Source of the DNA: a virus
Direction: 5' to 3' (one strand)
DNA: 64,000 nucleotides
IMG/VR virus record: IMGVR_UViG_3300044712_001906
Coordinates: 1 to 64,000 of that record
The notes beneath the pieces are model-generated. The model did not search any database, had not been told where the DNA came from, and was given only the letters and a program-made list of their open reading frames with translations. Positions 26,329 to 58,001 of the stretch are shown here, in pieces (position 1 is the stretch's first letter; the number at the start of each line of letters is the position of its first letter). Both the position numbers and the translations under genes were made by a program.

Positions 26329-26706
26329 TCACCCCGCCAGGTCTGCATGCCGAGCGTGGGGGCGTTCCGCGGAGGCGTTAAGGCGGGCGTTAGCGTCGCA
26401 CGTGGGCGGAATCCTGTACTTTGCTCGAACGACCTTCCGACTGGACGCATGGAGATTCGCTGCTCCGGTGCGGTCGGCGGGTGTGTCGGGCAAGCGTCCA
26501 TGGTCGTCCAGTACGGCCAGGCGTCCGGGTGGCGTCCAGGGTGCCCCGACGGTCGTGGCGAGCACGTAGCCGGTCCCATCGGCGACCTCACACGGGACTC
26601 CGGCGCCTGTCGACGCCGCGACCACGGGAAGGCCCCTTCCATGCGTCGGAGGATCTGGAGCCCATCCCGTTAGCGTCCGGAGCAGGATGGCGACCACCCG
26701 TCCCAT
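26329..26706 (-). CDS. Hypothetical protein upstream of baseplate J (125 aa)
   Basis: The ATG has GGAGGTGGAGC immediately upstream and the stop is three bases before the baseplate J start, which supports a real gene. The first half (ATTVGAPWTPPGRLAVLDDH) is plausible protein. The second half overlaps the late-promoter-like motif and has weak coding character. Function unknown; it could be a remnant. Confidence 0.4.
   Translation of the reverse strand: MGRVVAILLRTLTGWAPDPPTHGRGLPVVAASTGAGVPCEVADGTGYVLATTVGAPWTPPGRLAVLDDHGRLPDTPADRTGAANLHASSRKVVRAKYRIPPTCDANARLNASAERPHARHADLAG
26358..26391 (-). promoter_or_regulatory. Late-promoter-like motif, copy 3, upstream of baseplate J
   Basis: On the minus strand CTTAACGCC (26382..26374) is followed by seven bases, an A, four bases and CCCC (26361..26358). 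The same two-block pattern occurs before the portal and before the head protease genes. Here a second TAACGCC half-site lies 11 bases away (26391..26385). It sits between a plus-strand cassette and the baseplate genes. Confidence 0.5.
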
Positions 26707-26777
26707 GCTCCACCTCCACCACGAAGCTACCGCCGGGGGGGGGAGGTGGGGGCAACAGTCCGTGGCGGTGACTTACC

Positions 26778-26806
26778 TTGCCGCCCGATCGAGCCGAGGC
26801 TACCTT
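26778..26806 (+). promoter_or_regulatory. Candidate promoter of the PIN-nuclease cassette
   Basis: TTGCCG (26778..26783) and TACCTT (26801..26806) are 17 bases apart, 20 bases before the GTG at 26827. A GGGAGGCG ribosome binding site lies between. This would make the plus-strand cassette independent of the late operon running on the other strand. Confidence 0.5.
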
Positions 26807-26826
26807 GGCCTCGGGAGGCGTACCGC

Positions 26827-27624
26827 GTGACCCAACCCATCGCGAACGTTGGACTGGCCCAGGAGGCTCCCGCCACGCCTCGACGCGTTGCCGACCTGAT
26901 CGAAGCCCTGTCGTCGGCCTCGGCGGCGGCGGCGTCTTCTCCGCTAGGCGAGGACCTCACAGTGACAGTGTCGAACCGCAAGGTCAGGGTCGAGTTGCAT
27001 GCATGGTCCGAGGAGGCTGGACAGTCGTTGGCCATCGTCAACGGCCTCATGCGCGACCCGGTCGCCACGGCCGAGCGTATGCCCTATGGCGTCGTGGGCC
27101 GCGTGGCGAAGGCCCTCCGTCGTCACCTCGAAGAGGCTCTACCCGCGGGCGAGCTTCGGCTCGTCGGGTCCGATGAAGGTGACCGCGTCATCTCGCTGCC
27201 TATTATCGAGGCGTTGCGAGGCTTCGAGAGGCTGCACGACCAACGCACCGTGCTGCGAGGGAGCACGGTCCTGCTCACGCCCGTGTTGCGCGTCGGGCGG
27301 AGCCCTTCCGGCTCAGCGCGCTGGGCGGCGCGCGTGAGGGTCTACGGCAAGCTCGCGGAGCTCCCATTGCTCGATGCAGCTGCGGCCAGGGCAATCCGTG
27401 CGCTCGAACGCAAGACCGATGTCGAGGCGTGCGTCCATGCGGTATGGACGCGCTACGGTGACGGAGGCTGGGAGCTCGACGCGCGCGCCTCGCAGATCGT
27501 CGAGGTCCGGGAGTCGGGCTATCGTCCGCTTGCGCCAGGCGAGTGGAGCACGTTGCCTTCGTCCATGTCGGCCTCGCGGGTCGGCGCCCTGCTGAACGAG
27601 GAGGCTGACGAGTGGGCCGAGTAG
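26827..27624 (+). CDS. Unknown protein paired with a PIN nuclease (265 aa)
   Basis: The start GTG 26827 follows GGGAGGCG at good spacing. The 265-residue product begins VTQPIANVGLAQEAPATPRR and has alternating strands and helices (VSNRKVRVELHAWSEEAGQS, LVGSDEGDRVISLPIIEALR, TVLLTPVLRVGRSPSG). No named domain is recognised. It overlaps the PIN gene by 13 bases, so the pair is co-translated. It could be the antitoxin or a partner with its own activity, but it is much larger than usual VapB antitoxins. It is one of only two plus-strand genes within the 44-kb minus-strand late region. Confidence 0.6.
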   Translation: MTQPIANVGLAQEAPATPRRVADLIEALSSASAAAASSPLGEDLTVTVSNRKVRVELHAWSEEAGQSLAIVNGLMRDPVATAERMPYGVVGRVAKALRRHLEEALPAGELRLVGSDEGDRVISLPIIEALRGFERLHDQRTVLRGSTVLLTPVLRVGRSPSGSARWAARVRVYGKLAELPLLDAAAARAIRALERKTDVEACVHAVWTRYGDGGWELDARASQIVEVRESGYRPLAPGEWSTLPSSMSASRVGALLNEEADEWAE

Positions 27625-28160
27625 CCGTCGACACGAACGTCCTCATCGCATCCTTGCCAACGGTTGCCGACACGGCAGATCCCCGCTTCGCGCAGACCCG
27701 CGCTGCACAGCACCTCATGGACGAAGGTCAGGAGATCGTCGTGCCTGCGCCAGCGTGGTTCGAGATGCTGCGCAAGTGCACGAACCAGGAAGCCCAAGCC
27801 CTGGCGCCGCTTGCACAGAGGCTACGGATCGAGGCGGTCGACGCCGCCGCCGCCGAGCGCGCCGGCGAACTGGTCCGGGCGGCCGTGAAGACACCTCTCT
27901 GCGACGCCTGCTTGAACGAGATGCCGCCAGGTCTGTGCAACAAGTGCGGGGCAGCGCGTCCCAAGTCTGCGCTTCTGCTCGACGCGCTCATTGTGGCTGT
28001 GGCGGAGGTCCAGGGATGCTCGGCCTTCTACACGTTCGACGAGACCCTGGTGCGCGTCCTATCGCCGCTCGCGCGTGTTGCACTGCGAGTACCGAGGCCT
28101 CCTCCGCAAGGCGTGCTGCCGTTGGCTCCTCCGCGACGCGCGGCGGATGAAGCGCCGTAG
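27612..28160 (+). CDS. PIN-domain nuclease with inserted zinc knuckle
   Basis: The 182 residues carry the PIN acidic set: D7 in VDTNVLI, E51 in WFEML, D124 in LLLDALI and D143 in TFDETL, consistent with VapC-like RNases that cut tRNA or rRNA. Unlike standard members, a C97-x-x-C100...C109-x-x-C112 knuckle (CDACLNEMPPGLCNKC) is inserted before the third acidic residue. A Pro-rich tail (PRPPPQGVLPLAPP) follows the domain. The GTG start lies inside the preceding gene. The stop is only 11 bases from the convergent tail gene. Confidence 0.8.
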   Translation: MGRVAVDTNVLIASLPTVADTADPRFAQTRAAQHLMDEGQEIVVPAPAWFEMLRKCTNQEAQALAPLAQRLRIEAVDAAAAERAGELVRAAVKTPLCDACLNEMPPGLCNKCGAARPKSALLLDALIVAVAEVQGCSAFYTFDETLVRVLSPLARVALRVPRPPPQGVLPLAPPRRAADEAP

Positions 28161-28171
28161 AGCCTCGCGGA

Positions 28172-29695
28172 CTACCCCACGAACGGCACAAGCACCTGCA
28201 CCGAACCGCCGACAACCTCGACCTCGGCGTCTACCTCGAGCCGCTCCCCGTCCTCGACCACGCGCACGCCGCGCACGGCGACCACCCGGGGATCCGCTCC
28301 GAGCTGCGAGCTCGCGTGCGAAGCGACGAACCCGGCCTCCGTGGCATCGCCCGACTCTCCGACCAGGCGCGGGAGCCCGTAGTCCGACCAGACCGATTCG
28401 CCCTGCACCGTTCCGAGGCGAAGCTGGAAGGCCTGCTTGACGTTGTCCGGCCCCGAGACCGTTACGACGTCCGTGTCACCGAGCGCGACGAGGTCGCCGT
28501 CGACGAGGAACAGGTCCGAGCCGTAGGGGTCGCCGTCGAAGGTCGAGGCCGACGACGGAACGCCCGTGACCGGTACCTGGACGACGTCGCCGGGCTCGAG
28601 GGGGCTGCCGTCCGCCTTGCGGTCGGGCGCGGCCATCCCTGACGCCGTAGCGATCTCGACCCAGCGCGCGCGGTCGCCGAGCACGCGCCAGGCGATGTCG
28701 GTGAGGCTCTCGTTCGGGCGGATCGTGTAGGGCGCCGTGTCGACCTGCCCACCGGTGGGCGCGGTCATGGACGCGGCCCCTGGCGTGTCGTCGTCGACGC
28801 CACCGGCCACGCCATACCCGAACGATCCCAGGGCCTCGGCGACCGTCCGGCGGATCTCCGCGAGGCCCTCTAGGATGGAGTCGCGCGTGGGTCGTGCGTC
28901 CTCGGCGTTGTCGAGGCCGAGCGCGTCCCACGTGTCGAACACGGCCGTCGTGGCAGCCTCGGTCGCCTGGTAGACGTCCGCGAGGAGCTTCCCCGGGAAG
29001 GCCTTCAGGTCATCGACCTGTCCCGCCACTGCCTGCGCTTCCATGGCGATGCGCCCGACCGCTTGCACCGGCCCTCGCAGGTCGTCGAGGGTGCGGTTGA
29101 TGTTGGCGAGCTCCTCCTCGGCGCGCGCGACGTAGCCCGCGACAGCGTCCACCGCCTCGGTCGCGGACCGCGCCCAGCCAGAGATCGTGTCGAGGATGCC
29201 GCCCTTGCCGGCCTTCGCCTCGCCCATGCAGAGGAGCTCGAGGCTCCACGAGTACATGACGTTCGCCGAGGTCGTGTCCCTCTCGAGGGAGATCGTCGCG
29301 GGGTCGACGTCCCACGCCATGCCGTCGTCGATGGCGCGCAGCACGAGCCGCGGCTCGGGGCTGCCCGCCGCTTCGGCGGCGGCCGCGTCCTCCTCGAACT
29401 TCCGGAGGAAGGCCTTGAACTCCCGCGCGAGCTCGGGGCCGCCGGCGAACTTCCTGGTACCGGAGCGGTCTGACCCGAGGCGGTGCGCCCACCCCGAGAG
29501 GCCCCGGAACGAGACGCGCTCCTCGCGGAGCCCGGAGTGTTCCTTGACGGGGCGCTCACCCAGCGTCCACGAGACCTGCGAGGCGGACTGGTGCTGGATG
29601 GACGCGTTGGCCGTCGGCGGGAAGGCGATGGAGCGCGACAGGGCGCCTCGGCCATCGTAGACCTCGAGGAGGTATCGGATCTTCGCGCTGGCCAT
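28172..29695 (-). CDS. Tail/baseplate protein: LysM plus gp25-like fusion
   Basis: A 507-residue protein in three parts. Residues 1 to 160 form a beta-rich tail-protein domain (NASIQHQSASQVSWTLGERP). Residues about 170 to 300 are helical and probably coiled. A LysM domain at about 322 to 376 (YTIRPNESLTDIAWRVLGDR) joins to a gp25-like lysozyme-fold baseplate domain at about 405 to 505 (VSGPDNVKQAFQLRLGTVQG, LRLGTVQGESVW). LysM-containing proteins usually bridge tube and hub, and gp25 nucleates the sheath. In many phages these are separate genes; here they are joined. It lies between the fibre gene and the PIN cassette. Confidence 0.72.
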   Translation of the reverse strand: MASAKIRYLLEVYDGRGALSRSIAFPPTANASIQHQSASQVSWTLGERPVKEHSGLREERVSFRGLSGWAHRLGSDRSGTRKFAGGPELAREFKAFLRKFEEDAAAAEAAGSPEPRLVLRAIDDGMAWDVDPATISLERDTTSANVMYSWSLELLCMGEAKAGKGGILDTISGWARSATEAVDAVAGYVARAEEELANINRTLDDLRGPVQAVGRIAMEAQAVAGQVDDLKAFPGKLLADVYQATEAATTAVFDTWDALGLDNAEDARPTRDSILEGLAEIRRTVAEALGSFGYGVAGGVDDDTPGAASMTAPTGGQVDTAPYTIRPNESLTDIAWRVLGDRARWVEIATASGMAAPDRKADGSPLEPGDVVQVPVTGVPSSASTFDGDPYGSDLFLVDGDLVALGDTDVVTVSGPDNVKQAFQLRLGTVQGESVWSDYGLPRLVGESGDATEAGFVASHASSQLGADPRVVAVRGVRVVEDGERLEVDAEVEVVGGSVQVLVPFVG

Positions 29696-29704
29696 CGTTC
29701 CCTC

Positions 29705-32365: not shown

Positions 32366-32366
32366 G

Positions 32367-36516: not shown

Positions 36517-36745
36517 GGCGCTCCTCCTCCCACGCCTCGCGTTCGAGCGCGTCCCACTGCGGATCCCCGAGGAGCACCGGCCCCTTGTCGGCCTGCGACT
36601 TCGCCGCGGCCGTCATCCGGGCCTTCTCCATCGCGGACCACTCCGCGTCGGAGAGCCGCATGAGCACCGCTTCGGCCTCGTCGGCTGCGGCGAGGTCGGG
36701 CATCAAGGGGTGCGTCCGGCTACGCGGCGGCTCCGGCCAGGCCAT
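36509..36745 (-). CDS. Tail assembly chaperone, second frame (78 aa)
   Basis: A 78-residue acidic helical protein (ADEAEAVLMRLSDAEWSAME) directly before the tape measure. It overlaps the end of the first chaperone gene by 26 bases in the +1 (= -2) frame. Its own ATG has GGAGGTGG upstream, so independent translation is possible. In many phages this pair is joined by programmed frameshifting; no clear slippery run is seen in the overlap. Confidence 0.65.
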   Translation of the reverse strand: MAWPEPPRSRTHPLMPDLAAADEAEAVLMRLSDAEWSAMEKARMTAAAKSQADKGPVLLGDPQWDALEREAWEEERRG

Positions 36746-37208: not shown

Positions 37209-37232
37209 GGTCTCGGCCCACCCCTTCCTGCG

Positions 37233-37661: not shown

Positions 37662-37676
37662 GGTCTGACCTCCCTG

Positions 37677-43767: not shown

Positions 43768-45252
43768 TCAGAGGGTGAGCGAGACGTTCGTCCAGACCTT
43801 GTGCTTGCGCGGCGCGCGGACGTGCGGCGCCTTGAAGAGCATGGTCATGAACGGCTTGCTCGTGGCGACCTCCGCCAGCGGGCGGCGGATGACCGGGAGC
43901 AGGTTCGCGACGTAGAGCGAGTCGGGGTTCGTCTCGAGCGCGTAGACGTCGCTCGTGCCCGGGATGGACCGGTTCTCGTCGTAGAAGCCCGTCGAGTCGC
44001 CGCCCGTGCCGAGGAGGTTGCGCGCGAAGCGGCCGATGTACTTGCACGTGCTCGCGTCGCCGTCCTTGGCCGACCGGTAGACCTCGTAGAAGCGGACCGA
44101 GTAGTCGCCCGAGGTCGGCGCGTCCGAGTCCTCGATGTCGATGAACACGCGGTCGCCGCTGGCCACCGTGACCGGACCCTTCGTGATGGGCGCCGCGCTG
44201 CCCTTGTCGCCCACGGCCACGATCTTGTAGTAGTAGTCGCCCAGGTCGGCGGCCTTGAAGTTCGTGTCCCCGCCCGCGTTCGGGCTGGTCAGCGTGATGT
44301 CCCCGCCGGCGACCACGGTCGGCGCCTTGCCGGAGGCGGTGGCCTTCGGGGTCTGCGCGTGGCGGATCATGGGGGTGGGCATGAGCGGGATGGCCTCGCC
44401 CGTCGGACCGACGATGGAGAGCCGCCCGGCGTTGAAGGTCAGCATCGTGCCCGGGCCGAGGTCCATGGTCTGGAGCCGCGCCGAGGACTGCGAGAAGAGG
44501 CCGAGCAGGTTGCCGATGAGGGTCGTCGGCATGAGGATGGTGTCGACGTGCCCGTAGTACGGGTCGTCGGCGAGCTCGAAGATGCCCGAGACGAAGTCCG
44601 CGAGCTGGAGCTTGCCGCCGTCGGCGTCCACGACGTTGCCGCCCGCCACGATCTGCTTGCGGATGCCGTCGAACTCGAGGGGGCTCATGGCGGTGTCGCC
44701 GTCGAAGAGCGACCGCTCGTACTTGCGCGAGAGGGACTGGACTGCCGCGCTCGTCTGGAAGTCGAGACCCGACTTGCTCACCTGCCCGCGGCCGAGGATG
44801 TCGGTGACCGCCGCGACGTCGGTGATGGACCGCTGGACGCCCAGGTACTTGATGCGGGCGATCTTGCGGTTGATCTCCGACTCCTCCTGCTCGGTCGTGC
44901 CGCCCTCGGCGAACGCCGCCGGGATGCCGTCGTCGCCGAACTGGGTCACGGTCGCGACCTCGTAGAGGGGCGAGCCGACGGCCTTCTCCTTCAGGAGCTT
45001 CTGCAGGACGAGGTCCTTGTCCTGGAAGGTCTCCGAGGTCCACTGCGTGTCGATCGCCTGCGTGACGAGCGGGGTGAAGGCGTCCGTGAACTCCTGACCC
45101 TGCAGGATGTTCGACACGTCGGCCTTGTAGAGCGGCTCGAGCTGCGGCAGCGCCTTCAGGAGCTGCTGCTGCGTCGGAGACGCCTTCGCCATGGCGACCG
45201 CGGCGCGGATCGCCTGGAACTCCTCGAAGCTGATGGTTCCGTGCCCTTCCAT
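43768..45252 (-). CDS. Major capsid protein (494 aa)
   Basis: A 494-residue protein placed right after the scaffold-like gene. An N-terminal helical region, an E-loop-like stretch (AFAEGGTTEQEESEINRKIA) and a P-domain follow the HK97 layout. Between about 300 and 430 it has a fibronectin- or Ig-like insertion (LGDYYYKIVAVGDKGSAAPI, YSVRFYEVYRSAKDG), which probably projects from the capsid surface. The C-terminal segment (PFMTMLFKAPHVRAPRKHKV) closes the fold. Confidence 0.8.
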   Translation of the reverse strand: MEGHGTISFEEFQAIRAAVAMAKASPTQQQLLKALPQLEPLYKADVSNILQGQEFTDAFTPLVTQAIDTQWTSETFQDKDLVLQKLLKEKAVGSPLYEVATVTQFGDDGIPAAFAEGGTTEQEESEINRKIARIKYLGVQRSITDVAAVTDILGRGQVSKSGLDFQTSAAVQSLSRKYERSLFDGDTAMSPLEFDGIRKQIVAGGNVVDADGGKLQLADFVSGIFELADDPYYGHVDTILMPTTLIGNLLGLFSQSSARLQTMDLGPGTMLTFNAGRLSIVGPTGEAIPLMPTPMIRHAQTPKATASGKAPTVVAGGDITLTSPNAGGDTNFKAADLGDYYYKIVAVGDKGSAAPITKGPVTVASGDRVFIDIEDSDAPTSGDYSVRFYEVYRSAKDGDASTCKYIGRFARNLLGTGGDSTGFYDENRSIPGTSDVYALETNPDSLYVANLLPVIRRPLAEVATSKPFMTMLFKAPHVRAPRKHKVWTNVSLTL

Positions 45253-45276: not shown

Positions 45277-46017
45277 CTAGAGGCCGTACTTGGTGATGAC
45301 GGCCGCCGGGTCCGAGCCCGGGCGATCGATGTCTCGCGCTGCCTTCTTGAGCTCCTCACGGCGCTCGCTGGTCGTGTCGCTCGCCTTGATGAGCGCCACG
45401 ATCTTGCTGGCCACCTTGTCGCGGTCCTCGTTGGTCGGGACCGTCTGGGCGGACGGAGCGGCCGGCGTCCCCTTCGCGATCTGCTCGCCCGGTGGCGGCT
45501 GGATGACGACGTCGGCGACGTTCACGACGGCCTTGCCCGGGCGGGGCTCGGCCACGGCCTTCTCGAGCTCCCCGACCTTCGCGTGCAGCGAAGTGACGGT
45601 CTGGATGCTCGTCGCGACGGCCTTCACGAGCTCGCGGTGCGTGGCGCCGACGATCTCGAGGGCCTTGAAGAGCCCGGCGGCGCGGAGCATGGACGCGCCC
45701 TTGGCGGCCTGCTCCTCTTCGTCCTCGTCGCCGTCGTCGTCGGACGTGGCCTTGCCGTCCTCGTCGACCTTGCCGCCGCACTTGCCGCAGCACTTCTCCT
45801 CGGCCTTGGCGAGGCGCGCGGCCTCGTTGGTCGAGTCGAGGGCCTTGGCGACCTCCTCGAGGTGCCGGTCGAGCGCGGCCGGGTCGAGGTCGTTGAGCGG
45901 GTCGGTCTCCGCCTTGCACAGCCCGGCGGTGATCTGGGTCTGGACGATGGAGTCGATGAGGTCGGCTGCGAGGCCGCCCTTGGCCAGCGACTCGCGAAGC
46001 TCCTTCTCGGTCGGCAT
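45277..46017 (-). CDS. Scaffold-like head protein with Cys knuckle (246 aa)
   Basis: A 246-residue acidic, helical protein (ALDRHLEEVAKALDSTNEAA, HAKVGELEKAV) between the head protease and the capsid gene, the place and character of a scaffold. An unusual KCCGKCGGK stretch near residue 80, followed by an Asp/Glu run, could bind metal. The Lys/Glu-rich C-terminus fits capsid binding. It overlaps the protease stop by one base (TGATG). Confidence 0.6.
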   Translation of the reverse strand: MPTEKELRESLAKGGLAADLIDSIVQTQITAGLCKAETDPLNDLDPAALDRHLEEVAKALDSTNEAARLAKAEEKCCGKCGGKVDEDGKATSDDDGDEDEEEQAAKGASMLRAAGLFKALEIVGATHRELVKAVATSIQTVTSLHAKVGELEKAVAEPRPGKAVVNVADVVIQPPPGEQIAKGTPAAPSAQTVPTNEDRDKVASKIVALIKASDTTSERREELKKAARDIDRPGSDPAAVITKYGL

Positions 46018-46844
46018 CAGCGGTACTCCTGCGCGTCGCGCAGCAACTGGATTGCCGCCTCGCGGTTGAATTCCTCCGGGAGCCGGCGGACCACGCGGGC
46101 GATGAGCACGTCGACCGGTTCGAGCCCCTTGCAGAGGCGCGCCCAGTCGATGCCTGCCCTGGCGGCCGCGGCCTTCGCGATCGCGTCAGCGGCAGGCGAC
46201 TCCTCGCGGAGCTGCGGCAGCGGACAGCCCGCCTTGGCCCACTCCTCGAGGCTCTGGTGACCCGTGCGCGCGAGGTGGGCCGTCATGCCGGCGGCCATCA
46301 CGTCGAGCCACGAGTCGAAGTTGCGCGGCGCGGGGTCCACGGCGACCGTCAGGACACGCGCCTTCGTGATGCGCTTGCGGTCCGATGGGTCGCGCTCGAG
46401 GATCTCGCCCTCGACGGAGAAGCCCAGGCGCGTCCTCGCGCCCGACTTCGCCATGCCCTTGGCCGTCTCCCAGGCCTTACGCCCGAGCGGGTTCCAGAGG
46501 AACAGCTGCCCGCGCATCTTCATCGCGGCGACGCCGTCGTCGGTCAGAGTCGGGCTGATGTCGAGGGGCTCGCCGCAGATGTTGTCGTTGCGGGCGGGGT
46601 GGCCGTAGGAGATCTTCCCGAACGACTTGAAGAACGACCAGTCGATCCCGGACTGCACGACGACCTCGTCGTCGGCGTCGCGGCGCTCCGAGGTGATGAT
46701 CCCCGACACGCGGCCGTGGTCCTCGTCACCGAGCGGCGACTGTGTGCCAGCCTTCTCGATGGGATCGCCGGCCTTCTCGAACGGCTCCGCGTCGAACGGG
46801 AGCCACGAGTAGAAGCGATCGGGCTGGGTGCGGAGGGTCGCCAT
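46017..46844 (-). CDS. Prohead protease-like protein
   Basis: The start ATG 46844 is preferred; a GTG at 46865 would add seven residues with no ribosome binding site. The 275-residue protein has a beta-rich N-terminal half (GRVSGIITSERRDADDEVVV, ISYGHPARNDNICGEPLDIS) and TRLGFSVEGEILERDPSDRK, features of phage-head maturation proteases (S78/gp21-like). A His in SYGHPAR and a Ser in GFSVEG are candidates for the catalytic pair. The gene is upstream of the scaffold and capsid, the normal order. Confidence 0.68.
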   Translation of the reverse strand: MATLRTQPDRFYSWLPFDAEPFEKAGDPIEKAGTQSPLGDEDHGRVSGIITSERRDADDEVVVQSGIDWSFFKSFGKISYGHPARNDNICGEPLDISPTLTDDGVAAMKMRGQLFLWNPLGRKAWETAKGMAKSGARTRLGFSVEGEILERDPSDRKRITKARVLTVAVDPAPRNFDSWLDVMAAGMTAHLARTGHQSLEEWAKAGCPLPQLREESPAADAIAKAAAARAGIDWARLCKGLEPVDVLIARVVRRLPEEFNREAAIQLLRDAQEYR

Positions 46845-46858
46845 GCCCCCCGATTCAG

Positions 46859-46883
46859 GGGGCACGTTTCAGGGGGCGTTAAG
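46859..46883 (-). promoter_or_regulatory. Late-promoter-like motif, copy 2, upstream of the head protease
   Basis: CTTAACGCC (46883..46875, minus strand) is followed by seven bases, A, four bases and CCCC (46862..46859), ending about 15 bases before the protease ATG. It lies in the 60-base gap after the giant polyvalent gene. Confidence 0.5.
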
Positions 46884-46904
46884 TCGACCCATCACCACCC
46901 GACG

Positions 46905-49900
46905 TCACGGGTACCAGTAGTCGTACTTCGCGCCGTTCTTCTTCCGCATGCCGCCCTTCGTGCCGCCCGGGATGGCCTGCCAGCCGGCGCCAGTCGGACG
47001 CTCGCCTCCGTGCGTCGTTGATGCGGCATCGGTCGCCTTCGCGTGCTCCGCCTCGAAGGCCTTGACCTGTTCGTGGATGCCCTGCGCGCGGGCGATCTCC
47101 TGAGCCGCGATCTTGGGCTTGATGCCCCACGACTCGAGGTGCTCCGCCGTGATGCTCCCGTCGGCGACGCCCCTGACGAACTCGAGGTACGCGGCGCGGC
47201 GCGCTTCCTTCGTCGCCGTCTTGTCGCCCAGGGTCGCCCGCAGCCTGTCGAACGTCGCCCGGCTCGTCTTCGCCGCGTCCGCCCGGCGACGGAGGAGGCC
47301 CATGCCGACCTCGCCAGCCTTGCGATCTGGAGCGGACACGGTCTCAGGCTTCGCGCGATCTTCCTCGGGAGCGGCTTCCTCGTTCGGCGTCGGGGCGTCT
47401 GGCTCCGCCGCTGGGGCCTTCTCGTCGCGCTCCTCCGGGGCCTTCGTCGGCTGCTCGCTCTTGGGCTCGGACTTCTCGGGCTCGGGCTCGGGTTCGGACT
47501 TCGGTGGCTCTGCCGACTTGGGCGTCCGCTTCTTCTTCGCCCTGGCCGGCTTGGTCTTCTCGGGCTCGGGCTTGCCCTTGCCCTTGGGCGCCTTCGCGCC
47601 GTCAGGGTTGGGGGCGGCACCCGCCTTGCCCTTGCGCGGCTTCCTGGGTGTCCTCTCCGGCGCTCCCTTCGGGGCGGGCTCGGGCGCCTTCGATCCCCCG
47701 GAGGTCTCATCGATGGCGGGGTGCGGGGCGGGCGCCGGACGTGGCTTGCCCTTCGGCTTGGGCGCCACCGCGGCCGGCGAGACCGGAGCGATCGGGTCGG
47801 CGCTGGGCGACACGAACGACGCGTCCGGCTTCTGGTAGCGCGCCTGATGCTCCGCGAGCGCGTCGACGAAGCCCTGATGCGACTCCGCGACCTCGCGCTT
47901 GACGTCCCCCACGCGACGCTTCTCTCCCCCGAGCTCGATCTCCGCGTCGTCGGGGAGCTTGGCGAGCTTCTCGTGGGTGCGCGCGGTCGCGTCGACGTAG
48001 GTGGCGAGGGCCTCGTGCCGCTGGTAGTGCTTGGGGTCGTTGTAGCCCGAGGCCTCGGACGCAGCCCTGAGGTCGGCCGCGCGCTTGCGTGCCTTCTTCG
48101 ACGCCGCCTTGATGAGGTCCGCGGCCCCGGCGCTCGCGCCAGCGAATAGGCCCGTCTGGCGCTTCCCGGCGTCTTTCTCGGACCCGAGCATGTCTGCGAG
48201 GACGTCGGCTGTGCTCTTCGCTGGCCCCATGAGCGTCGACTGTCCGGCCGGGTTGCGCTGGGCGTGCTGGGCGATCTTGCGGAAGGCGTCGCTCATCTGG
48301 ACGTGCCCAGTGCGTGTCGTGATGAGGTTCAGGACGTGCTTGCCCTCGGGCGAGAGCTTGGGCTTTGACCCGAAGCCGCCCGAGTCGCCTCCGAGGAGGT
48401 CGCCGAAGCCCTGATCGCGATCGAACTCGCTCACGCTCTTGATGTTGTGCTTGCGCATGTAGGCATGCGCCTGCACCGCCTCGACGAGCGGCGCCGAGAG
48501 GTCGTGCCCGGCCGAGCCCGACCGGACGATGTGCGGGACCGAGCGCGCGATCGCCTGGATCTGGCTCTGCGGCATGTCGCTCAGCGTGTCCGCGTGCGGG
48601 ACGACCTTGCCGACGAGGAGGCGCTCGACGAAGGTCTTGCCGTCCTCGTTCAGCGCCCCGTCCTTGCCGAGGTACTGCGAGCGGTTGCGCCGATCGATGA
48701 TGCCCGCGCGCTGCATCGCGTCGACGAAAGGCCGCGCGTCGGCCGACGACAGGTACGCGTTGAGCGTCGCGTGCTTGTCCTCGCCGTTGTCGGCCTTGGC
48801 CTCCATGCCCGTGGCGAGGGTCTGGAGCATCGCCGGGGTCACGAGGCGCGCCCGGGCGACCTGGTCCGTCCGCGGGTCCATCGACTGCGTGAAGGCCTCG
48901 TTGTAGCGGCGGACGAGCACGCCGAGGTTCTGCTTGCCCTGGTCCTCGACGTCGACCTGTCGCACCAGGACCGGCTGCTTGAACTGCGACACGTCCTCGG
49001 GCGCGAGACCCCACTGGTGGGCGTTGTCCTTCAGGTGCTTGACGTAGGCCGCCCTCGCGTCGCCTCCCTTCTCGTGCGCGAGCTGGATCGACATCGTGCG
49101 CGAGTTGCCGCCGAGCACGATGCCCTTGTCGGTCACGAGCGGAGGCCCGTTGACGGCGTCGGGGTTGGTGTTCGCCACGAGGTCGGGCTTGAGCTTCTGC
49201 GCGTTCCTGAGCACCTTCTCCTGCTCTGCCTTGTCGCGATGGTAGACGCGCTCCTGAACTCCCTCCGGGTACTCCTCGCGCTGCTTGAAGCCCTTGGTGG
49301 GATCGTGCGACGCGATGAGGTCGGACGCCTCCATGAGCTTGTACCGCGCCGCCTGAGGGGTCGGAGAGCCGTCGGCGTCGGCGACGTAGACGGTCGTGCT
49401 CGAACCCGTCCCGGGCGCGGTCTCATCGCCGGCGTGCTTGGTGAGCGCGTGCCACTTCCCTTGCAGCTCGCGGTAGCGCTCGAGCTCGTCGAGCTTGCCG
49501 AGGTCCGGGTAGGCCTCAGCGGCGGCCTGGAGGCGCGCGAGCGCTGGCGACTCGACGGACTGCTTGGCGTAGGCGAGGAGCTGCTTGACGGCGCTCTCGT
49601 TGCCCTTGACCGCTTCGACGGCGCCGAGGAGCCCTTCGAGCTTCCCGAGGTCTGCGGCTGCGGCTGGGCGAAGCTCGTCGATCGCCCGTCGCGACGACGC
49701 GGCCTCGACGACGTGGGCGGGTTCGACCTGCTTGGCGCCCGAGGTGCGCCGCAGGTTCTCCGCGCCGCGGGCGATCTGCCGCCCGGCTCCCGTGACCTCG
49801 CGCCCGGTCGCCTTGTGCGTGGCCAGCGCGAGGAGGACACCCTTCGCGTCGCCGGACCATCCGGGGCGCTGCGCGAGGAAGTCGACGAGGGCCTTGGCGT

Positions 49901-52900
49901 GCTTGAGGTCCACGCCCGCGGCCTGGAAGCGATCGCCGTAGGCCTTCCACATGGCGTCGGCGGTGTCGTGGGCGCCATCGGGGAGTTTGCCGACGGACGC
50001 GAGGAGCTGGCGCGCGATGGTCTCGGCGCCGCGCTCCATCCGCGCGCGGTAGACCGCGTGGAGCTCGTCATGGAGCGCCGACAGGGGCAGCGTGCGCTCC
50101 TTGCCGGTCTTGGGGTCGCGGAGCGTCACCGAGCCGTCCTCGCCGACCTTCACGACGTCGGCGACGCCGTGACGGCGGAGGTTGATGCGCTCGCCCTCGC
50201 GCGCTTCGTGGGCGGTGGCCGCGTCGTGGTAGTAGTAGCGCCAGCCTCCCCCGGGCTTGGGCACGCGGCGGATGTACTTGTGGGAGCCGGCCTTCCAGAG
50301 CGCCTTTCCGATCTGGGCCGGGAGCTCGTGGCCGTGGGCGATGGCGGCGGAGACGGCCTTGATCAGCGAGGCATGGCGGGTGCTCGTGTCCGATGTAGCG
50401 AAGGCTTTGGCGAGGTGCCCGCCGTTCTTGAGGACGTCCATGAGCTTGCCCATGGCCGCAACGATGCGCGTGCGCTCGTCGCCGCTCGGGTAGGGCTGCG
50501 CCTCGGCCACGGCGCCGTCGGACCGCATGACGGTGACGCCGGTCCCGAAGACCTTGTCGGTGCCCGCGACCAGGTAGCCGTTCTCGCGCCCTCCCGCCTT
50601 GAGCGTGTCGTGGACGTAGGTCTCGAAGGCGCGCGCGAACAGCTCATGTGGCGACGCCCAATAGCCCTCGCCGAGCCGGACCGCCGATTTCACGAAGTCG
50701 GTCGCGGTGGCGGGCGTGTCGCGCCAAATCTTCTCCAGGCTCTTCGCGCGGTTGATGCTCAGGCGCAGGCTCTCGACGTCGCGCTCCAGCTTCGCCATGC
50801 GGGCGGCGTCCTCTGGCGTTCGGACCCGCTTGCTCTTGACCGCCTCCTCCTCGCGCTGGATCCAGTAGCTCCGCGCCTGCGCGGCCATGAGGAAGTCCTG
50901 CACCCGCTTCGGCGCCAGGCCCGGCTCGGCCGCCATGCCCTGATACTTGTCGCGCTCGGCGGCCCACTTCGTCGTGTTGAGCGCGAGGATCTCGTGGGCG
51001 CGCTTGAGCGCCGCCTCGTCGGCGACGGTCGAGCCCTTGATCTTCTCGTGCTCGCTCACGAGGTCGTTGGACTGCTGGATGAGGGCGTTGGTGTTGTCGG
51101 CCAGCGTGCGCGCGTGCTTCCGATGCGACTCTCTGGCCGCGTCGGGGTTGGGGTGCGCGGTGATCGCGTGCATCGCGGCGGAGACGGCTGCGTTGACGTC
51201 CGGCGGCAGGTTCGATCGCCCGCTGGCGTGCGACAGGAACGTGCCCTGCAGCGAGGTCGCGCTCCCGAGGTAGTGCTCCGCGATCACGTTGTCGAGCGCG
51301 TGGCCCCACTCGTGAGCTACGGACCCGCCGCCGTTCAAGCGGGTGATGTTGATCTGCTTGCGCGACGGGGCGTAATGCGCCGCGGCCGCGCCTCGCCCGT
51401 CGGCGCCCAGCGCGATTCCGAGGCGCCCCTTGAACGAGACGACCGACGGGTCGATGCCCGTCACGTCGACGAAGTCGTGCATGGCCGCTTCGAGCGCCCT
51501 GGTGTGATAGGCGCGGTCGGCCTGCGTCATGTAGCCGTCCTTCCCGTAGTCGACCTCGCGCAGCCCGAAGGCCTCGCGCATCCGCTCGGGGGAGACCCCC
51601 TCGGGCATGGGGCGCCCGCCGACGCGCTTGAACTCGCCGTCGCTGCGCTTGGCGCCGCGCCACGAGAGGGCCTCTTGTGCCGACTGGCGCCCGGAGACCT
51701 TCGGCGCCTTCTCGCCTGCCTCCTTCGGCTTCTGGCTGTCCTCCATCCACGCCCAGCCCCTCGCCTGCGCGGCCTGCGCTTCGGCGGGCGGGAGCGGGGC
51801 GCCGCGAACGAGCCCGTCCAGCTCCTTCGCCTTCTCGGTCGTGGCGTACAGGTGGCGCCCCTTGTCGAGTAGGCGTGTGAAGTTGGCCCCCAGGGCGTCG
51901 TAGGGCCGCGGGACCTTGTGAACGATGGTGAAGGCGTAGACGTGGTGGTCGTAGACGAGGCGGTACTCCTCGCCCTTGTTCGCTGCCGCCAGCGCCCGCG
52001 CCTTGTCGGACGCCTCGCGGCTCGACGCGTACTCGCCAGTCCCCGGTACGCGGGCGTACTTGCTCGCGCTCTCGCGCCGGTGCTTCATCTCCAAGAGCAG
52101 ACGGCCAATGTCCCCGAGGTCGCGGACGTTCTTGAGCGCGCCGTGAAGCTGCCGTAGGTCTTCGGCATAGGCCATTTGCTCGGCCTTGTTCGCGCCCGGC
52201 TTCTCGCGCACGGCCGAGAGGATGGCGATCGCGCAGTAGGCCGTGCCAGGCGTCATCCCGGCCGCCTTCGCGTGCGCCAGATCGATCGGCTCGACGAGGC
52301 GGCTCTTGCGGACGATGTGCGCCGCGTCGTCGTATCCGAGGCGGCTGATGTCATCCAGGCTGACGGTCGCCAGCGCCGCGAGATCCTTGCGCGAGCCCCA
52401 GACGTGATCGCCCGTGGCTTCGATCTTGCCGTCGAGGCCCTTGACCCCCTCTGGCTTCTGCCGCGGCTTGCGGGGCATTTTCTCCACCGGAGGGGTAGGC
52501 GCCGGAGCCGGAGCGGGGTCGGGAGCCGGAGCAGGCGCCGGTGGCGGGGGCGCCGGGGCGGGCTTGGCCTCGGGGGCGTCGTCGCCCTCGGGGGCATCGT
52601 CGAGCTTCCGGAGGTGGCCTTCCATCCACTCGGCCGCGGAGAGCCACGCGTCGGCGTGGTAGGTGTTGCCGGGGAGGCGCCGTTCGATCTCGGTGAACAG
52701 GTCCTTCCGGGCGCGGATCTCGGCGATGGCGGCCTGCAGCTTGCCGCGCTCCGCCGCCGCCATGGGCGCCACGGTGTCGCGGGTCAAGGCGAGGAGGTGC
52801 TCCAGGCCTTCGACCTTCTGCCGCCAGATTTCCGTCGGCGTGTGCGGGTGCTCGGCGCCGTAGTAGCCGGCGAGGTCGTCGGTGCGCCCGTCGAAGAGCT

Positions 52901-54515
52901 GCTGCAGCTCCCTCTTCGCCGCGGTCATGCTCTGCGGCACGGTGCTCTTTGGCGCGTGCCCGCGCTCCCACATGAGGAGGGCCGTCGCCGAGCGGAGGCC
53001 TGGCATCCAGGCCTGCTTGTGGAGCGCCGAGAAGTCGTCCGCGATCTGGGCGCCGGTGCGCTCGGGGGCGGGCTCGGGCGCTGGGGCTACCGGAGGAGGC
53101 AGGGCCGGTTCCTTCGCCTTCCGGTTCTTCGCAGCCGCCTCCCTCCGCTGCTTCAGCTCCGCCTCCGAGAGCCCCGCGCGCTTGGCGAGCCCTTCGGCAC
53201 GCTCGACCTGCTTCAGCGTCCCGTGCGCGTGGGCCTCGTCGAGCACGGCGCTGGCCTTCTTCTTCGCCTCGTCCATCGCGGCCGCATGCTCGCTTCGGAG
53301 GAGCTCGGCGAGCCTCTGTTTCGTGATGACCTGTGTGGCGCCCGTCTCGTCGTGTTTGACGGTGACGTGGTCGCCCGGCGACGCCCCGATGATGTGGTAG
53401 TGGCCCTCGCCGACACGGAACGCTGCGCCCACGACGAAGTGCTTCTCGTCCGCGACGCCTCCGCCATGGTGGACGGCGTAGAAGTACCTGTACCCGCCAC
53501 CGCTCTTCGGGACGCGCTTGATGTACTTGTGCCCCGCGCCCTTGAAGAGCCGCTCGCCGACGTCAGCCGGTAGGGGAACCCAGAAGCTCACGCCGCGGCG
53601 CCCGGACATCGAAGCGGCCATGGGCTCGCGGCGGAAGATGTCGACCTGGCCAGTGCCCTGCCCGTGCATGGTGACCTCGTTGGCGTGATGGACCTTCGGC
53701 CCCTGCGGCGTGTGGACGAGGACAGCCATGCGTCCCGTCCGCTCGTGGACCCCGACCGCCTTGACCTCGTGGAGGTTGCCTTCGCGGTCTCGGATGATGG
53801 CTCCGCGCTGGAGCGCCCGGCCGTGCGGGTTCTCGTGGCGCCAGGCTATGTGGTGTGCCGGGTCGACGTACCTGCCGCCCTTCGGACCGATGAAGACCGC
53901 CTGCGGGCGCGGCTTCGCCGGTGCGGCGCCCGACTTCGCGGGCTCGCCGTCTGGCACGTGCTTCGGGGCCCCGAAGAGGTCGGCCTGCGCGGCCTTCTCG
54001 ACGGAGCTCGGCCCGCCAGTCATCGCTCGAGCGCGCTCACGCCCGTCCTCGGCGACGATCTCCTGCGGGTAAACGACGGCGGCGGCGTACTGGTAGCGCT
54101 TGGCGAAGCCGTCGACCTCGTCCTCGTCTGGGCGCAGCCGGTCGCCGGAGATCGACACCGTGAGGATGACAGGCCTGCCGCCGTGCTTGGCGACGGCGCC
54201 GAGGGCGTAGGACTCGGCCGATGCCGGGCCGGTTGGCTTGGCCGTCAAGTAGACGACTGGAGCGCGCTCGGAGTCCTCGCCCGTCAGGTTGGATCGCGCG
54301 TGACAAGCGCCCAGGCCTTCCTCGAGGATGCGCGGCAGCAGGGCGGAGCTCGTGCCGTGGAAGAGGCGCACGCCCGGTTGCCCGCGGAGCTCCTCGAACG
54401 GTGGCGGGGCCATCCAGTCGATGGTGCCGCGCCAGTCGAGGTCGCCGACGTTGCGGCCGTCCTGAGGAACGAGCGTCATGCCCATCTTCTCGGGCAGGTC
54501 GATGGGCAGCGTCAT
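46905..54515 (-). CDS. Giant polyvalent protein: ART, zincin protease and ParB-like domains
   Basis: At 2536 residues it is the largest gene here. Visible parts: a PARP-like ART domain (about 45 to 155, with H53-G54-T55 in LFHGTSSALLPRILEEGL). Next a first YIKRVPKSGGGYRYFY repeat (about 330). The metallopeptidase region has HEWGHALD near residue 1068, with the conserved approach GRLGIALGADGRGAAAAHYA. A second repeat (YIRRVPKPGGGWRYYY, about 1410). A DdrB-type ParB-like nuclease domain (about 1725 to 1900, with VLGGNSRTMSIQLAHE). A Lys/Pro/Glu-rich linker (about 2250 to 2400) and a C-terminal GAKYDYWYP end. This is the layout of polyvalent proteins, which are thought to be injected with DNA to block host defence. 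It lies between the minor head gene and the late promoter motif. Confidence 0.82.
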   Translation of the reverse strand: MTLPIDLPEKMGMTLVPQDGRNVGDLDWRGTIDWMAPPPFEELRGQPGVRLFHGTSSALLPRILEEGLGACHARSNLTGEDSERAPVVYLTAKPTGPASAESYALGAVAKHGGRPVILTVSISGDRLRPDEDEVDGFAKRYQYAAAVVYPQEIVAEDGRERARAMTGGPSSVEKAAQADLFGAPKHVPDGEPAKSGAAPAKPRPQAVFIGPKGGRYVDPAHHIAWRHENPHGRALQRGAIIRDREGNLHEVKAVGVHERTGRMAVLVHTPQGPKVHHANEVTMHGQGTGQVDIFRREPMAASMSGRRGVSFWVPLPADVGERLFKGAGHKYIKRVPKSGGGYRYFYAVHHGGGVADEKHFVVGAAFRVGEGHYHIIGASPGDHVTVKHDETGATQVITKQRLAELLRSEHAAAMDEAKKKASAVLDEAHAHGTLKQVERAEGLAKRAGLSEAELKQRREAAAKNRKAKEPALPPPVAPAPEPAPERTGAQIADDFSALHKQAWMPGLRSATALLMWERGHAPKSTVPQSMTAAKRELQQLFDGRTDDLAGYYGAEHPHTPTEIWRQKVEGLEHLLALTRDTVAPMAAAERGKLQAAIAEIRARKDLFTEIERRLPGNTYHADAWLSAAEWMEGHLRKLDDAPEGDDAPEAKPAPAPPPPAPAPAPDPAPAPAPTPPVEKMPRKPRQKPEGVKGLDGKIEATGDHVWGSRKDLAALATVSLDDISRLGYDDAAHIVRKSRLVEPIDLAHAKAAGMTPGTAYCAIAILSAVREKPGANKAEQMAYAEDLRQLHGALKNVRDLGDIGRLLLEMKHRRESASKYARVPGTGEYASSREASDKARALAAANKGEEYRLVYDHHVYAFTIVHKVPRPYDALGANFTRLLDKGRHLYATTEKAKELDGLVRGAPLPPAEAQAAQARGWAWMEDSQKPKEAGEKAPKVSGRQSAQEALSWRGAKRSDGEFKRVGGRPMPEGVSPERMREAFGLREVDYGKDGYMTQADRAYHTRALEAAMHDFVDVTGIDPSVVSFKGRLGIALGADGRGAAAAHYAPSRKQINITRLNGGGSVAHEWGHALDNVIAEHYLGSATSLQGTFLSHASGRSNLPPDVNAAVSAAMHAITAHPNPDAARESHRKHARTLADNTNALIQQSNDLVSEHEKIKGSTVADEAALKRAHEILALNTTKWAAERDKYQGMAAEPGLAPKRVQDFLMAAQARSYWIQREEEAVKSKRVRTPEDAARMAKLERDVESLRLSINRAKSLEKIWRDTPATATDFVKSAVRLGEGYWASPHELFARAFETYVHDTLKAGGRENGYLVAGTDKVFGTGVTVMRSDGAVAEAQPYPSGDERTRIVAAMGKLMDVLKNGGHLAKAFATSDTSTRHASLIKAVSAAIAHGHELPAQIGKALWKAGSHKYIRRVPKPGGGWRYYYHDAATAHEAREGERINLRRHGVADVVKVGEDGSVTLRDPKTGKERTLPLSALHDELHAVYRARMERGAETIARQLLASVGKLPDGAHDTADAMWKAYGDRFQAAGVDLKHAKALVDFLAQRPGWSGDAKGVLLALATHKATGREVTGAGRQIARGAENLRRTSGAKQVEPAHVVEAASSRRAIDELRPAAAADLGKLEGLLGAVEAVKGNESAVKQLLAYAKQSVESPALARLQAAAEAYPDLGKLDELERYRELQGKWHALTKHAGDETAPGTGSSTTVYVADADGSPTPQAARYKLMEASDLIASHDPTKGFKQREEYPEGVQERVYHRDKAEQEKVLRNAQKLKPDLVANTNPDAVNGPPLVTDKGIVLGGNSRTMSIQLAHEKGGDARAAYVKHLKDNAHQWGLAPEDVSQFKQPVLVRQVDVEDQGKQNLGVLVRRYNEAFTQSMDPRTDQVARARLVTPAMLQTLATGMEAKADNGEDKHATLNAYLSSADARPFVDAMQRAGIIDRRNRSQYLGKDGALNEDGKTFVERLLVGKVVPHADTLSDMPQSQIQAIARSVPHIVRSGSAGHDLSAPLVEAVQAHAYMRKHNIKSVSEFDRDQGFGDLLGGDSGGFGSKPKLSPEGKHVLNLITTRTGHVQMSDAFRKIAQHAQRNPAGQSTLMGPAKSTADVLADMLGSEKDAGKRQTGLFAGASAGAADLIKAASKKARKRAADLRAASEASGYNDPKHYQRHEALATYVDATARTHEKLAKLPDDAEIELGGEKRRVGDVKREVAESHQGFVDALAEHQARYQKPDASFVSPSADPIAPVSPAAVAPKPKGKPRPAPAPHPAIDETSGGSKAPEPAPKGAPERTPRKPRKGKAGAAPNPDGAKAPKGKGKPEPEKTKPARAKKKRTPKSAEPPKSEPEPEPEKSEPKSEQPTKAPEERDEKAPAAEPDAPTPNEEAAPEEDRAKPETVSAPDRKAGEVGMGLLRRRADAAKTSRATFDRLRATLGDKTATKEARRAAYLEFVRGVADGSITAEHLESWGIKPKIAAQEIARAQGIHEQVKAFEAEHAKATDAASTTHGGERPTGAGWQAIPGGTKGGMRKKNGAKYDYWYP

Positions 54516-55691: not shown

Positions 55692-55945
55692 CACGGCCTC
55701 CCCGAGCACGCCTGCCTCGTCGCCAGGATGTCCGCGCGGAGCCGCTCGGCTCTGCGCTGGTAGGCTCGCGTCATCATCGCTGCGAGCTCGTCGAGGGCGG
55801 TCACTTCGCCGCCGGCAGGCGCGCCGACGCCCTTGGCGATCGCCTCGCGCGCCGTGTAGAACGCCTCGTCGAGACGCGCGGCGACCTCGGCGGCCGTCAG
55901 GCCGTCAAGCTCGCCAGGCCTCGACTCGACGATGGCGACGCGCAT
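55691..55945 (-). CDS. Small helical protein near portal (84 aa)
   Basis: An 84-residue helical protein (TAAEVAARLDEAFYTAREAI, ALDELAAMMTRAYQRRAERL). It overlaps the minor head gene by one base (TGATG). No domain is recognised. Its place between the small structural protein and the minor head gene suggests a head-assembly accessory role. Confidence 0.55.
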   Translation of the reverse strand: MRVAIVESRPGELDGLTAAEVAARLDEAFYTAREAIAKGVGAPAGGEVTALDELAAMMTRAYQRRAERLRADILATRQACSGRP

Positions 55946-55948
55946 GGG

Positions 55949-56344
55949 TCACGGCGCCGGCGGGGGCTCGGGGGCGTCGCCGAGCATGAGGATCGTGACC
56001 GCCGCGGCGGAGTCCTGCGTCGGGTTCTCGACGGTCAGCGCCTCGAAGTAGGTGGCCTCGAGGACCATCGTCGCGACGCCGCTCGCCGAGGGTCGGAGCC
56101 GGACGAGCCCTGCGTCCATGACCAGGTCGACGGCGCTGTCCGCCTCGACGAAGATCGCCTTGCAGACGCCGATGCCGCCGAGGTCGATGGTCTTGACGCC
56201 GTCCGTATCGGCGAGGTCGAGGCGCACCATCGTCGCCTCATCCCAGTCCGTGCCGGCGACGACGTCCTTGACCCGGTGGAAGATGAGGTCCTGGAAGTTC
56301 GCGTCCTGGGCGACCTTGAGGACGAGCTCGCGCCGGTAGTACAC
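55949..56344 (-). CDS. Beta-rich structural protein after the portal (131 aa)
   Basis: A 131-residue beta-rich protein (TMVRLDLADTDGVKTIDLGG, ATMVLEATYFEALTVENP) ending in Pro/Ala. The stop and start spacing (one base after the portal stop, three bases before the next gene) places it in the head operon. It could be a head-decoration or completion protein; no family recognised. Confidence 0.55.
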   Translation of the reverse strand: MYYRRELVLKVAQDANFQDLIFHRVKDVVAGTDWDEATMVRLDLADTDGVKTIDLGGIGVCKAIFVEADSAVDLVMDAGLVRLRPSASGVATMVLEATYFEALTVENPTQDSAAAVTILMLGDAPEPPPAP

Positions 56345-56345
56345 G

Positions 56346-57965
56346 TCAGACCTCCACCATCCACGCTCGCGCCTGCGGGCGCGTCACGGGCACGCGCCTG
56401 GCGGTTGCTCCCTTGCCGAACGCAGCAGCGAAGGCGTCCGCCGCGTCGTCCACCTGTCCGCCCGTCTCGTCGTCGAGCTGCGGCGCGCCGTCAGGCCCCT
56501 GCGGCCCGGCACCTTCCGCGTCGCCACCGTCGCCCGGCTGCCCGCCACCGTCCTGCGGCGCTGCGGCCGCCTGTGCCGCCTGGAGCCACGTGGCGTTCAG
56601 AATGACCTGCCCCTTGCCGTCCGGAAGGGGCTTCATGTCGTGCTCGGCGCGGATCTCGTCGACCATCATGAAGTGCTGGCAGCGCTTGACGTCGTTCTCG
56701 AGCTTCTCCGTCTCGCTCATCGAGTCCATGCCGGCGAACTCGAGCTCGAAGTCCTCGTTGATCGGCCAGACGATGTGCTCGTTCAGCGCGTTCTGCGCCG
56801 AGCGCACGAACGGGCGGATGCCGCCTTCCTTGGAGTTGGCAATCCGGTCGCGCGGGTTCGCGCTCGCCAGCGCGTTGGTCTGGTTCTCGTTGCCGTAGAC
56901 GTACCCGCTCTCGCTCGGGTCCATCAGGAACAAGGCGTGGATGATCTTGTTCAGGAAGCCGATCCAGACCGAGAACTCCATCTCGCGGTTGTTCGACGAG
57001 AGGTTGACGGCCTTCAGCTCCTCGTCCTTGCTCGGGTCGAGGCGGAGGATCGGGGTCTTCTTGGCGTTGCGCGGCCCCGAGAGCATCGCGCGCACGTACT
57101 GCGTGAACGCGGCGAAGTTCTTGGGATCCATCGCGCTCTTGAGCGTGAGGATCGTGCTGACGTGGACACCATTCGTGAAGTTCGCGTCGTTGTAGGCCGC
57201 CGCGTTCAGGTAGCTCTGGAGGACCTGCACGGCCTCGTCGAGCTCGGGGAAGCCGTAGCCGCAGACGTTGACGTCGGTCCGCGGGCGACGGACGCAGAAC
57301 GCGAGCTCGTCGCCGTCGAACTGCTGGACGATGCGCCCCTGGATGACCTGCGCGAACTGGCGCTCGGACGGCGGACGGCCCGTGCTCAGGTCCTTGGGCC
57401 GAGCGATCCGAATCGTCGACCCGTCCACGGCGCGGAAGCCAGCGGGGCGGTTGCCCTTGCTGTAGAGCTTCTCGAAGCAGGCCTGGTCGTAGATGAGCGC
57501 GTCACGGCCCCAGAGCCGGAGGAAGGTCTCGAGCGAGCCGTTGCCGTGCTTGCCGCCCGTCGTCAGGACGAGCTTCGTCAGGTCTCGGATGACCTTCTGC
57601 GCCGCCCGCGTCGGATGCGCCTTGGGGTCGCGCATCTTGATGACCGTGCCGATGCCGTACCGGTTGGGCTGCGGAACGGCGAACTCGGCGAGCTGATTGA
57701 TGCGCCTGGAGATGATCGGCGCGACGACCGGCACCCGGGCCATGCGGGCGAGCGCATCGTAGGTCAGACCGATCGTGCCGTGATGGGTCGGGTCCTGCGC
57801 GCCGAACCAGAACGCCATCTGCAGCGGGTCGAACGCCCATGCCTCGCCAGGCACGGTGGGCGGCGGCGGGACTGATGCGGATGCGGGCGCCACGTCGCCC
57901 GGGTCCTGCCTCCGTCTGGCCTTGCCGAGGCCGAAGGCCCGCTTCGTCGCGTCCCAGAAGCCCAC
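56346..57965 (-). CDS. Portal protein (539 aa)
   Basis: GTG 57965 begins GFWDATKRAFGLGKARRR and replaces a longer shadow frame. The 539-residue protein has the portal clip and wing pattern (ISRRINQLAEFAVPQPNRYG, WGRDALIYDQACFEKLYSKG, NAKKTPILRLDPSKDEELKA, FLNKIIHALFLMDPSESGYV) and an acidic Gln/Gly/Asp-rich C-terminus. It forms the dodecameric DNA-entry ring at one capsid vertex. A late-promoter-like motif precedes it. Terminase is not adjacent; the type IIG enzyme and phosphoesterase lie upstream instead. Confidence 0.82.
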   Translation of the reverse strand: MGFWDATKRAFGLGKARRRQDPGDVAPASASVPPPPTVPGEAWAFDPLQMAFWFGAQDPTHHGTIGLTYDALARMARVPVVAPIISRRINQLAEFAVPQPNRYGIGTVIKMRDPKAHPTRAAQKVIRDLTKLVLTTGGKHGNGSLETFLRLWGRDALIYDQACFEKLYSKGNRPAGFRAVDGSTIRIARPKDLSTGRPPSERQFAQVIQGRIVQQFDGDELAFCVRRPRTDVNVCGYGFPELDEAVQVLQSYLNAAAYNDANFTNGVHVSTILTLKSAMDPKNFAAFTQYVRAMLSGPRNAKKTPILRLDPSKDEELKAVNLSSNNREMEFSVWIGFLNKIIHALFLMDPSESGYVYGNENQTNALASANPRDRIANSKEGGIRPFVRSAQNALNEHIVWPINEDFELEFAGMDSMSETEKLENDVKRCQHFMMVDEIRAEHDMKPLPDGKGQVILNATWLQAAQAAAAPQDGGGQPGDGGDAEGAGPQGPDGAPQLDDETGGQVDDAADAFAAAFGKGATARRVPVTRPQARAWMVEV

Positions 57966-57976
57966 GCTACAACGGT

Positions 57977-58001
57977 GGGGCCGATGCGGCAGGGCGTTAA
58001 G
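57977..58001 (-). promoter_or_regulatory. Late-promoter-like motif, copy 1, upstream of portal
   Basis: CTTAACGCC (58001..57993, minus strand), then seven bases, A, four bases and CCCC (57980..57977), ending 11 bases before the portal GTG. A strong hairpin (GGCGGCC / GGCCGCC, 58001..58016) abuts it on the upstream side and may terminate the preceding RM transcript. Confidence 0.5.

Follow-up and report, generated by a model that had tools for sequence, protein, structure and literature searches.

The late genes of phage P2 are served by four promoters, PP, PO, PV and PF, with one phage-specific upstream element for each late operon (PMC3931495). The middle promoters of phage T4 carry a MotA box at about -30 and keep the host -10 element, by a process described as sigma appropriation (PMC2988021), and in phages with Ltr or RinA proteins a small regulator gene situated before the packaging genes activates the late genes (PMC13123087). 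Repeated sites near gene starts have also been described in two further settings: the start-associated sequences (SAS) of Cluster K, which lie 3-7 bp from the start codon and contain AGGAG (PMC3203893), and the stoperators of phage L5, of which more than 20 are distributed over the early promoter and other intergenic gaps (PMC9283540). In mycobacterial leaderless genes, a -10 element is located near the start codon, a Shine-Dalgarno sequence is absent, and an RTG codon stands at the start of the transcript (PMC4633059).

The sequence considered here belongs to a phage represented by a 77,882-base IMG/VR record. The window, that is, the whole stretch of DNA that was analyzed, corresponds to bases 1-64,000 of that record, and the other 13.9 kb were used as held-out data. 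A preliminary description of the window had proposed that a two-block motif, CTTAACGCC followed by N7-A-N4-CCCC, recurs as a candidate phage late promoter or activator site. That exact pattern was indeed found at 26358-26382, 46859-46883 and 57977-58001, always on the minus strand (and in none of 100 dinucleotide shuffles), and the identities given to the neighboring genes (portal, MmeI-type IIG enzyme, head protease, baseplate J and PIN) were likewise borne out. A pattern search extended over the whole record uncovered one further CTTAACGCC, at 69067, again ahead of the opening gene of a late block; because this copy falls outside the 64-kb window, and hence had never been shown to the earlier reader, it provides an independent confirmation. 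The fourth copy retains the 9-mer and, from the second block, the A but not CCCC, so that the CCCC block is excluded from the constant signal, which is reduced to the 9-mer CTTAACGCC present in all four copies (minus-strand sites beginning at 26382, 46883, 58001 and 69067 for copies 1-4); CGCCTTAACG is common to three of them. The corresponding features are as follows, with gene starts called from GC frame and inspection, and with positions above 64,000 being those of the record.

24931-26325, minus strand: baseplate J gene, opening the baseplate/tail block; GTG at 26325, with an in-frame TGA just upstream and a weak GGTG
About 26346, minus strand: predicted transcript start for copy 1, with a leader of about 20 nt
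26374-26382, minus strand: CTTAACGCC copy 1; TTAACG at 26376-26381, 17-nt spacer, -10-like CACGCT at 26353-26358
45277-46017, then 43768-45252 (major capsid), then tail genes, minus strand: genes after the head protease
46017-46844, minus strand: head maturation protease, opening the head/tail block; ATG at 46844 picked by inspection
About 46846, minus strand: predicted transcript start for copy 2
46875-46883, minus strand: CTTAACGCC copy 2; TTAACG at 46877-46882, 18-nt spacer, -10-like CTGAAT at 46853-46858
56346-57965, minus strand: portal gene, opening a late block; no Shine-Dalgarno sequence
57965, minus strand: predicted transcript start for copy 3, coinciding with the portal GTG
57993-58001, minus strand: CTTAACGCC copy 3; TTAACG at 57995-58000, 17-nt spacer, -10-like CACCGT at 57972-57977
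68498-69031, minus strand: 177-aa gene without assigned function, opening a probable structural/lysis block
69031, minus strand: predicted transcript start for copy 4, identical to the ATG of the 177-aa gene
69059-69067, minus strand: CTTAACGCC copy 4; TTAACG at 69061-69066, -10-like CAGGCT at 69038-69043
69722-71470: terminase gene, upstream of copy 4
75455-75991, minus strand: P0002, a 178-aa stand-alone protein with a diverged, sigma-70-region-4-like helix-turn-helix; outside the window

The phage is temperate, and encodes an integrase (15402-16499), two helix-turn-helix repressors (3750-4742 and 11618-12208) and a CII-like protein (3172-3711). Within the region 3172-6179 the CII-like gene and a helix-turn-helix repressor gene point apart across a 38-bp gap, and a gene for an IrrE-type peptidase, preceded by a promoter-like TTGATC-N18-TATCCT site, comes next. 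A two-gene cassette on the plus strand (26746-28160), encoding a 292-aa protein without a Pfam match and then a PIN-domain protein, is located within the leftward late region. On the minus strand, a 2536-aa reading frame (46905-54515) separates a minor head gene from the head protease, with the next block beginning 60 bp past its stop, and an MmeI-type IIG restriction-modification enzyme (58138-61644) is encoded immediately upstream of the portal gene. Further along the record, genes for an RNA ligase with a PHA02142 OB-fold domain and for a GroES-like co-chaperonin (71932-74705, minus strand; L004:13933-16706) lie near the SSB and terminase genes. Rfam and tRNA searches returned no match.

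The tetranucleotide TTAA occurs four times in the whole record, each time inside CTTAACGCC and on the minus strand; its rarity, to which the preliminary description had drawn attention, is genuine and is due to base composition, not avoidance (about 0.5 occurrences are expected from trinucleotides, against the four observed). For CTTAACGCC itself, Markov models of order 0-3 predict 0.41, 0.11, 0.01 and 0.05 copies per record, again versus four. Two GC-rich genomes of 8.4 and 7.6 Mb contain 4 and 9 occurrences, or 0.5-1.2 per Mb, as compared with a density of 51 per Mb in the phage record, and those rates predict 0.04-0.09 copies per 78 kb, with a probability of 1e-7 to 3e-6 for at least four. 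Among 11,510 9-mers with at least four copies, CTTAACGCC is the sole one for which every copy lies 20-60 nt upstream of a start. A second k-mer scan of the record yielded the same k-mer family and no other, and an equivalent scan of a related phage contig found no such word. A second candidate signal word, GTGAACGT, was dropped, being a tandem repeat within the tail of the P0002 gene; a tandem GTGAAC repeat is found at the 3' end of that gene (record 75493-75518, minus strand; L004:17494-17519).

Each of the four copies precedes the gene that opens a late block, and early genes have no copy, the whole-record search having found no CTTAACGCC among the early rightward genes, and the original proposal of a late promoter or activator site is thereby well supported. 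Because there are exactly four copies, each approximately 35-56 nt ahead of a late block's opening gene, they would constitute a shared 'on' signal for late genes, and it is very likely that CTTAACGCC acts as a late promoter or activator element. In the block behind copy 4, the 177-aa gene is followed by genes for a GH25 endolysin and a holin-like membrane protein (holin-like as read by eye), and, judged from these neighbors, that block probably bursts the cell. The further suggestion, of a restart of late transcription behind every accessory insertion, is not needed for interpreting the four putative promoters; no relative close enough to reveal such insertions was found, and P2 too has four late promoters, for which no cause of this kind is known.

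The geometry of TTAACG appears to suit a -35 element much better than a -10 element. In all four copies the hexamer matches the -35 sequence TTGACA at four of six positions, and its first T precedes the start codon by 35 nt at the portal gene, 35 nt at the 177-aa gene, 38 nt at the protease gene and 56 nt at the baseplate J gene. With that T placed at -35, the portal and 177-aa transcripts would begin on the start codon; the portal GTG at 57965 is backed by SPO1-type portals that align from residue 1. The A at -11 and the T at -7, the positions that matter most in a -10 element, are captured by the pattern NANNNT, which is found 17 nt past TTAACG in copies 1, 3 and 4 (p about 3e-4 versus shuffles, with five spacers scanned and the test devised post hoc); copy 2, with CTGAAT at 18 nt, shows a poorer fit, and this, like the 56 nt that separate copy 1 from the baseplate J start, counts against the reading. 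Both this test and the recognition-helix comparison presented below were devised after the sequences had been inspected. A composite of TTRACN, followed after 16-18 nt by NANNNT and directly thereafter by ATG or GTG, has five matches in 78 kb, three of which are the motif sites. None of the four motif-led genes has a core Shine-Dalgarno sequence, which is present in 22 of the 34 remaining late genes (Fisher p 0.025). The copies, their position, orientation and spacing, and the missing core Shine-Dalgarno sequence are thus observed features, from which we infer the promoter role; a -35 geometry combined with a leaderless or near-leaderless start is judged probable. TTAACG would stand in for TTGACA, with a poor -10 element (NANNNT) about 17 nt further on, and transcription would begin at the start codon or at most about 20 nt from it, so that the late mRNAs would be leaderless or nearly so.

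A candidate reader of the motif, P0002, was found by a six-frame search as a weak match to Sigma70 region 4. Its Pfam Sigma70_r4 score of 14.9 bits is under the cut-off of 24.1, which two of its homologs exceed (38.5 and 25.8 bits); one homolog reads LTLEEVGEILNLTRERIRQVE, a stretch that differs very little from region 4.2 in primary sigma factors, and a three-sequence profile of P0002 and its homologs matches sigma region 4 structures (E 2e-6). The AlphaFold model of P0002 is poor (pLDDT 47), and no hit of that model in a Foldseek search was significant (best E 0.36, the top entries being mostly sigma factors); armadillo-repeat designs, the sole matches when P0002 alone was searched against solved structures, were judged spurious. 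Homologs of P0002 were found in a Myxococcales MAG (G025). One contig, C421, harbors a P0002 homolog along with proteins related to the portal (34% identity) and to baseplate J (25%), and for that reason the sigma-4-like gene appears to travel with the phage lineage; the recognition helix of the C421 homolog differs (ATDDVRE), and the contig does not contain CTTAACGCC.

In sigma70, R584 reads position -31, and E585 and R588 set specificity at -33 (PMC2613000). The recognition helix of P0002 still has R at the equivalent of R584, and has V and K at the equivalents of E585 and R588, while the motif, relative to TTGACA, keeps the C at -31 and has A in place of G at -33. The changes in the helix would agree with the change in the motif at -33, a post hoc argument that is suggestive. 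The closest motif copy lies 6 kb downstream of the P0002 gene. The dedicated phage factor envisaged in the preliminary description is plausible to the extent that a sigma-region-4-like gene is present; six-frame searches of the record detected no member of the Ogr, Mor or sigma region-4_2 families, and the Pfam scan of P0002 for a complete sigma factor (regions 2 and 4) gave region 4 only, weakly. That P0002 reads the motif is proposed tentatively, as a possibility somewhat short of even. Presumably produced ahead of the late genes, P0002 might steer the host RNA polymerase to TTAACG (the weaker part of the scheme), in a manner likened to the replacement of -35 recognition by T4 MotA or to the activation of late genes by Ltr/RinA proteins. 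The most specific version, in which its rewritten helix replaces the host sigma factor's reading of the -35 hexamer (TTGACA to TTAACG) and activates four leaderless late operons, with other helices paired to other motifs in relatives, is doubtful.

A less likely arrangement is that the motif is an activator site which lies ahead of a late promoter, or overlaps it, and that this promoter yields an ordinary leadered transcript; P0002 would then be unrelated and some other phage activator (for example, the CII-like product of 3172-3711 or another small protein) would bind. The phage encodes that CII-like protein and other helix-turn-helix proteins, and the P2 Ogr and Ltr systems illustrate how diverse late activators can be; however, a motif 35-38 nt from three of the starts leaves no space for a downstream -35/-10 pair and a leader, the four motif-led genes are devoid of core Shine-Dalgarno sequences, the sole CII-type box (TTGC-N6-TTGC) is at 27654, away from the motif sites, and the six-frame searches found neither Ogr nor Mor families. 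It is considerably more improbable that CTTAACGCC is an asymmetric operator or stoperator through which the immunity repressor silences late genes in the lysogen. Such a role would suit a temperate phage that encodes repressors, and the sites are asymmetric, in one orientation relative to transcription, and situated in short intergenic gaps, as are L5 stoperators (PMC9283540), but a repressor has to act on the early genes, and no exact copy is found near the divergent pair at 3711/3750 or elsewhere among them, and four copies contrast with more than 20 in L5.

A signal for translation near the start codons, whether a start-associated sequence or an RNA hairpin, has even less to recommend it. 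The read-through RNA at copy 2 would form a strong hairpin over the AUG (-21 kcal/mol, z -3.5), which is absent from a transcript begun at the predicted site; the other three copies give hairpins that exceed those of shuffled sequences by about 1 SD at most, so that the hairpin is kept as a lead. The motif ends at least 27 nt from the start codon, versus 3-7 nt for SAS, and contains no AGGAG. Chance is of negligible probability and is refuted by P values of about 1e-7 (position alone) and about 1e-6 (number alone): whole-collection IMG/VR scans returned 73 contigs for the earlier pattern and 47 for the motif with NANNNT and a start, all of them single exact matches to related patterns in unrelated contigs, set aside as background (1 of the 47 at an ORF start), whereas this record holds four copies, all upstream of late starts, against 0.01-0.4 expected.

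We return to CTTAACGCC as what is probably the -35-position specificity element of four coordinately switched late promoters in a distantly SPO1-like, contractile-tailed temperate phage. Its capsid and portal are 25-34% identical to SPO1-like and Thermus phage phiMa-like proteins, which indicates distant kinship. A portal profile search gave 461 relatives with a top identity of 46%, and in all of the best 80, which were examined, the motif is absent before the portal gene. The relatives found, with a portal identity of 46% or less, all lack the element, which therefore has no phylogenetic footprint; queries with the major capsid, baseplate J, sheath and terminase found no relatives, or 35% identity at best, and k-mer discovery in five relatives with loose start calls gave noise only. 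At least three portal relatives, each on its own contig, are found in Myxococcales MAG nzgw250 (L163, L164, L167, L174). The result would be a late regulon, derived purely from sequence, in a temperate phage that is GC-rich, uncultured and only remotely akin to SPO1 and the Thermus phages; its transcript starts are given as exact predictions, and a single candidate regulator is named. Should P0002 indeed read the motif, RNA polymerase would be re-programmed in a minimal way, by supplying the -35-reading domain alone.

Like P2, this phage is temperate, has a contractile tail, and distributes its late genes over four operons (portal, head, baseplate and others) with one element each. The P2 element itself, TGT-N12-ACA, is found in this record at 4995 and 58878 only, not at the four proposed promoters, the six-frame search for the Ogr/Delta zinc-finger family of its activator (PF04606) was negative, and the element described here would lie at -35, close to the start codon. 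As at T4 middle promoters, a phage element would take the place of the -35 sequence and a -10 type element would be retained; the sequence differs, and the candidate reader here is itself sigma-region-4-like. A small candidate regulator ahead of the late genes recalls the Ltr/RinA systems, but Ltr acts on a promoter beside its own gene, whereas the sites in this phage are four and dispersed, and Ltrs are described as basic, whereas P0002 is acidic (pI 5.5). With Cluster K SAS and L5 stoperators the motif shares the property of being a repeated asymmetric site near gene starts in a single orientation, but it is neither 3-7 bp from the start nor AGGAG-bearing, unlike SAS, and has no exact copy near 3711/3750, unlike stoperators. 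Compared with mycobacterial leaderless genes, the predicted architecture is common to the late operons of one phage. The element is therefore outside the P2/Ogr, Ltr, SAS and stoperator systems, since it departs from every one of them in a feature that was tested, and by analogy it appears to behave like one of a late promoter set.
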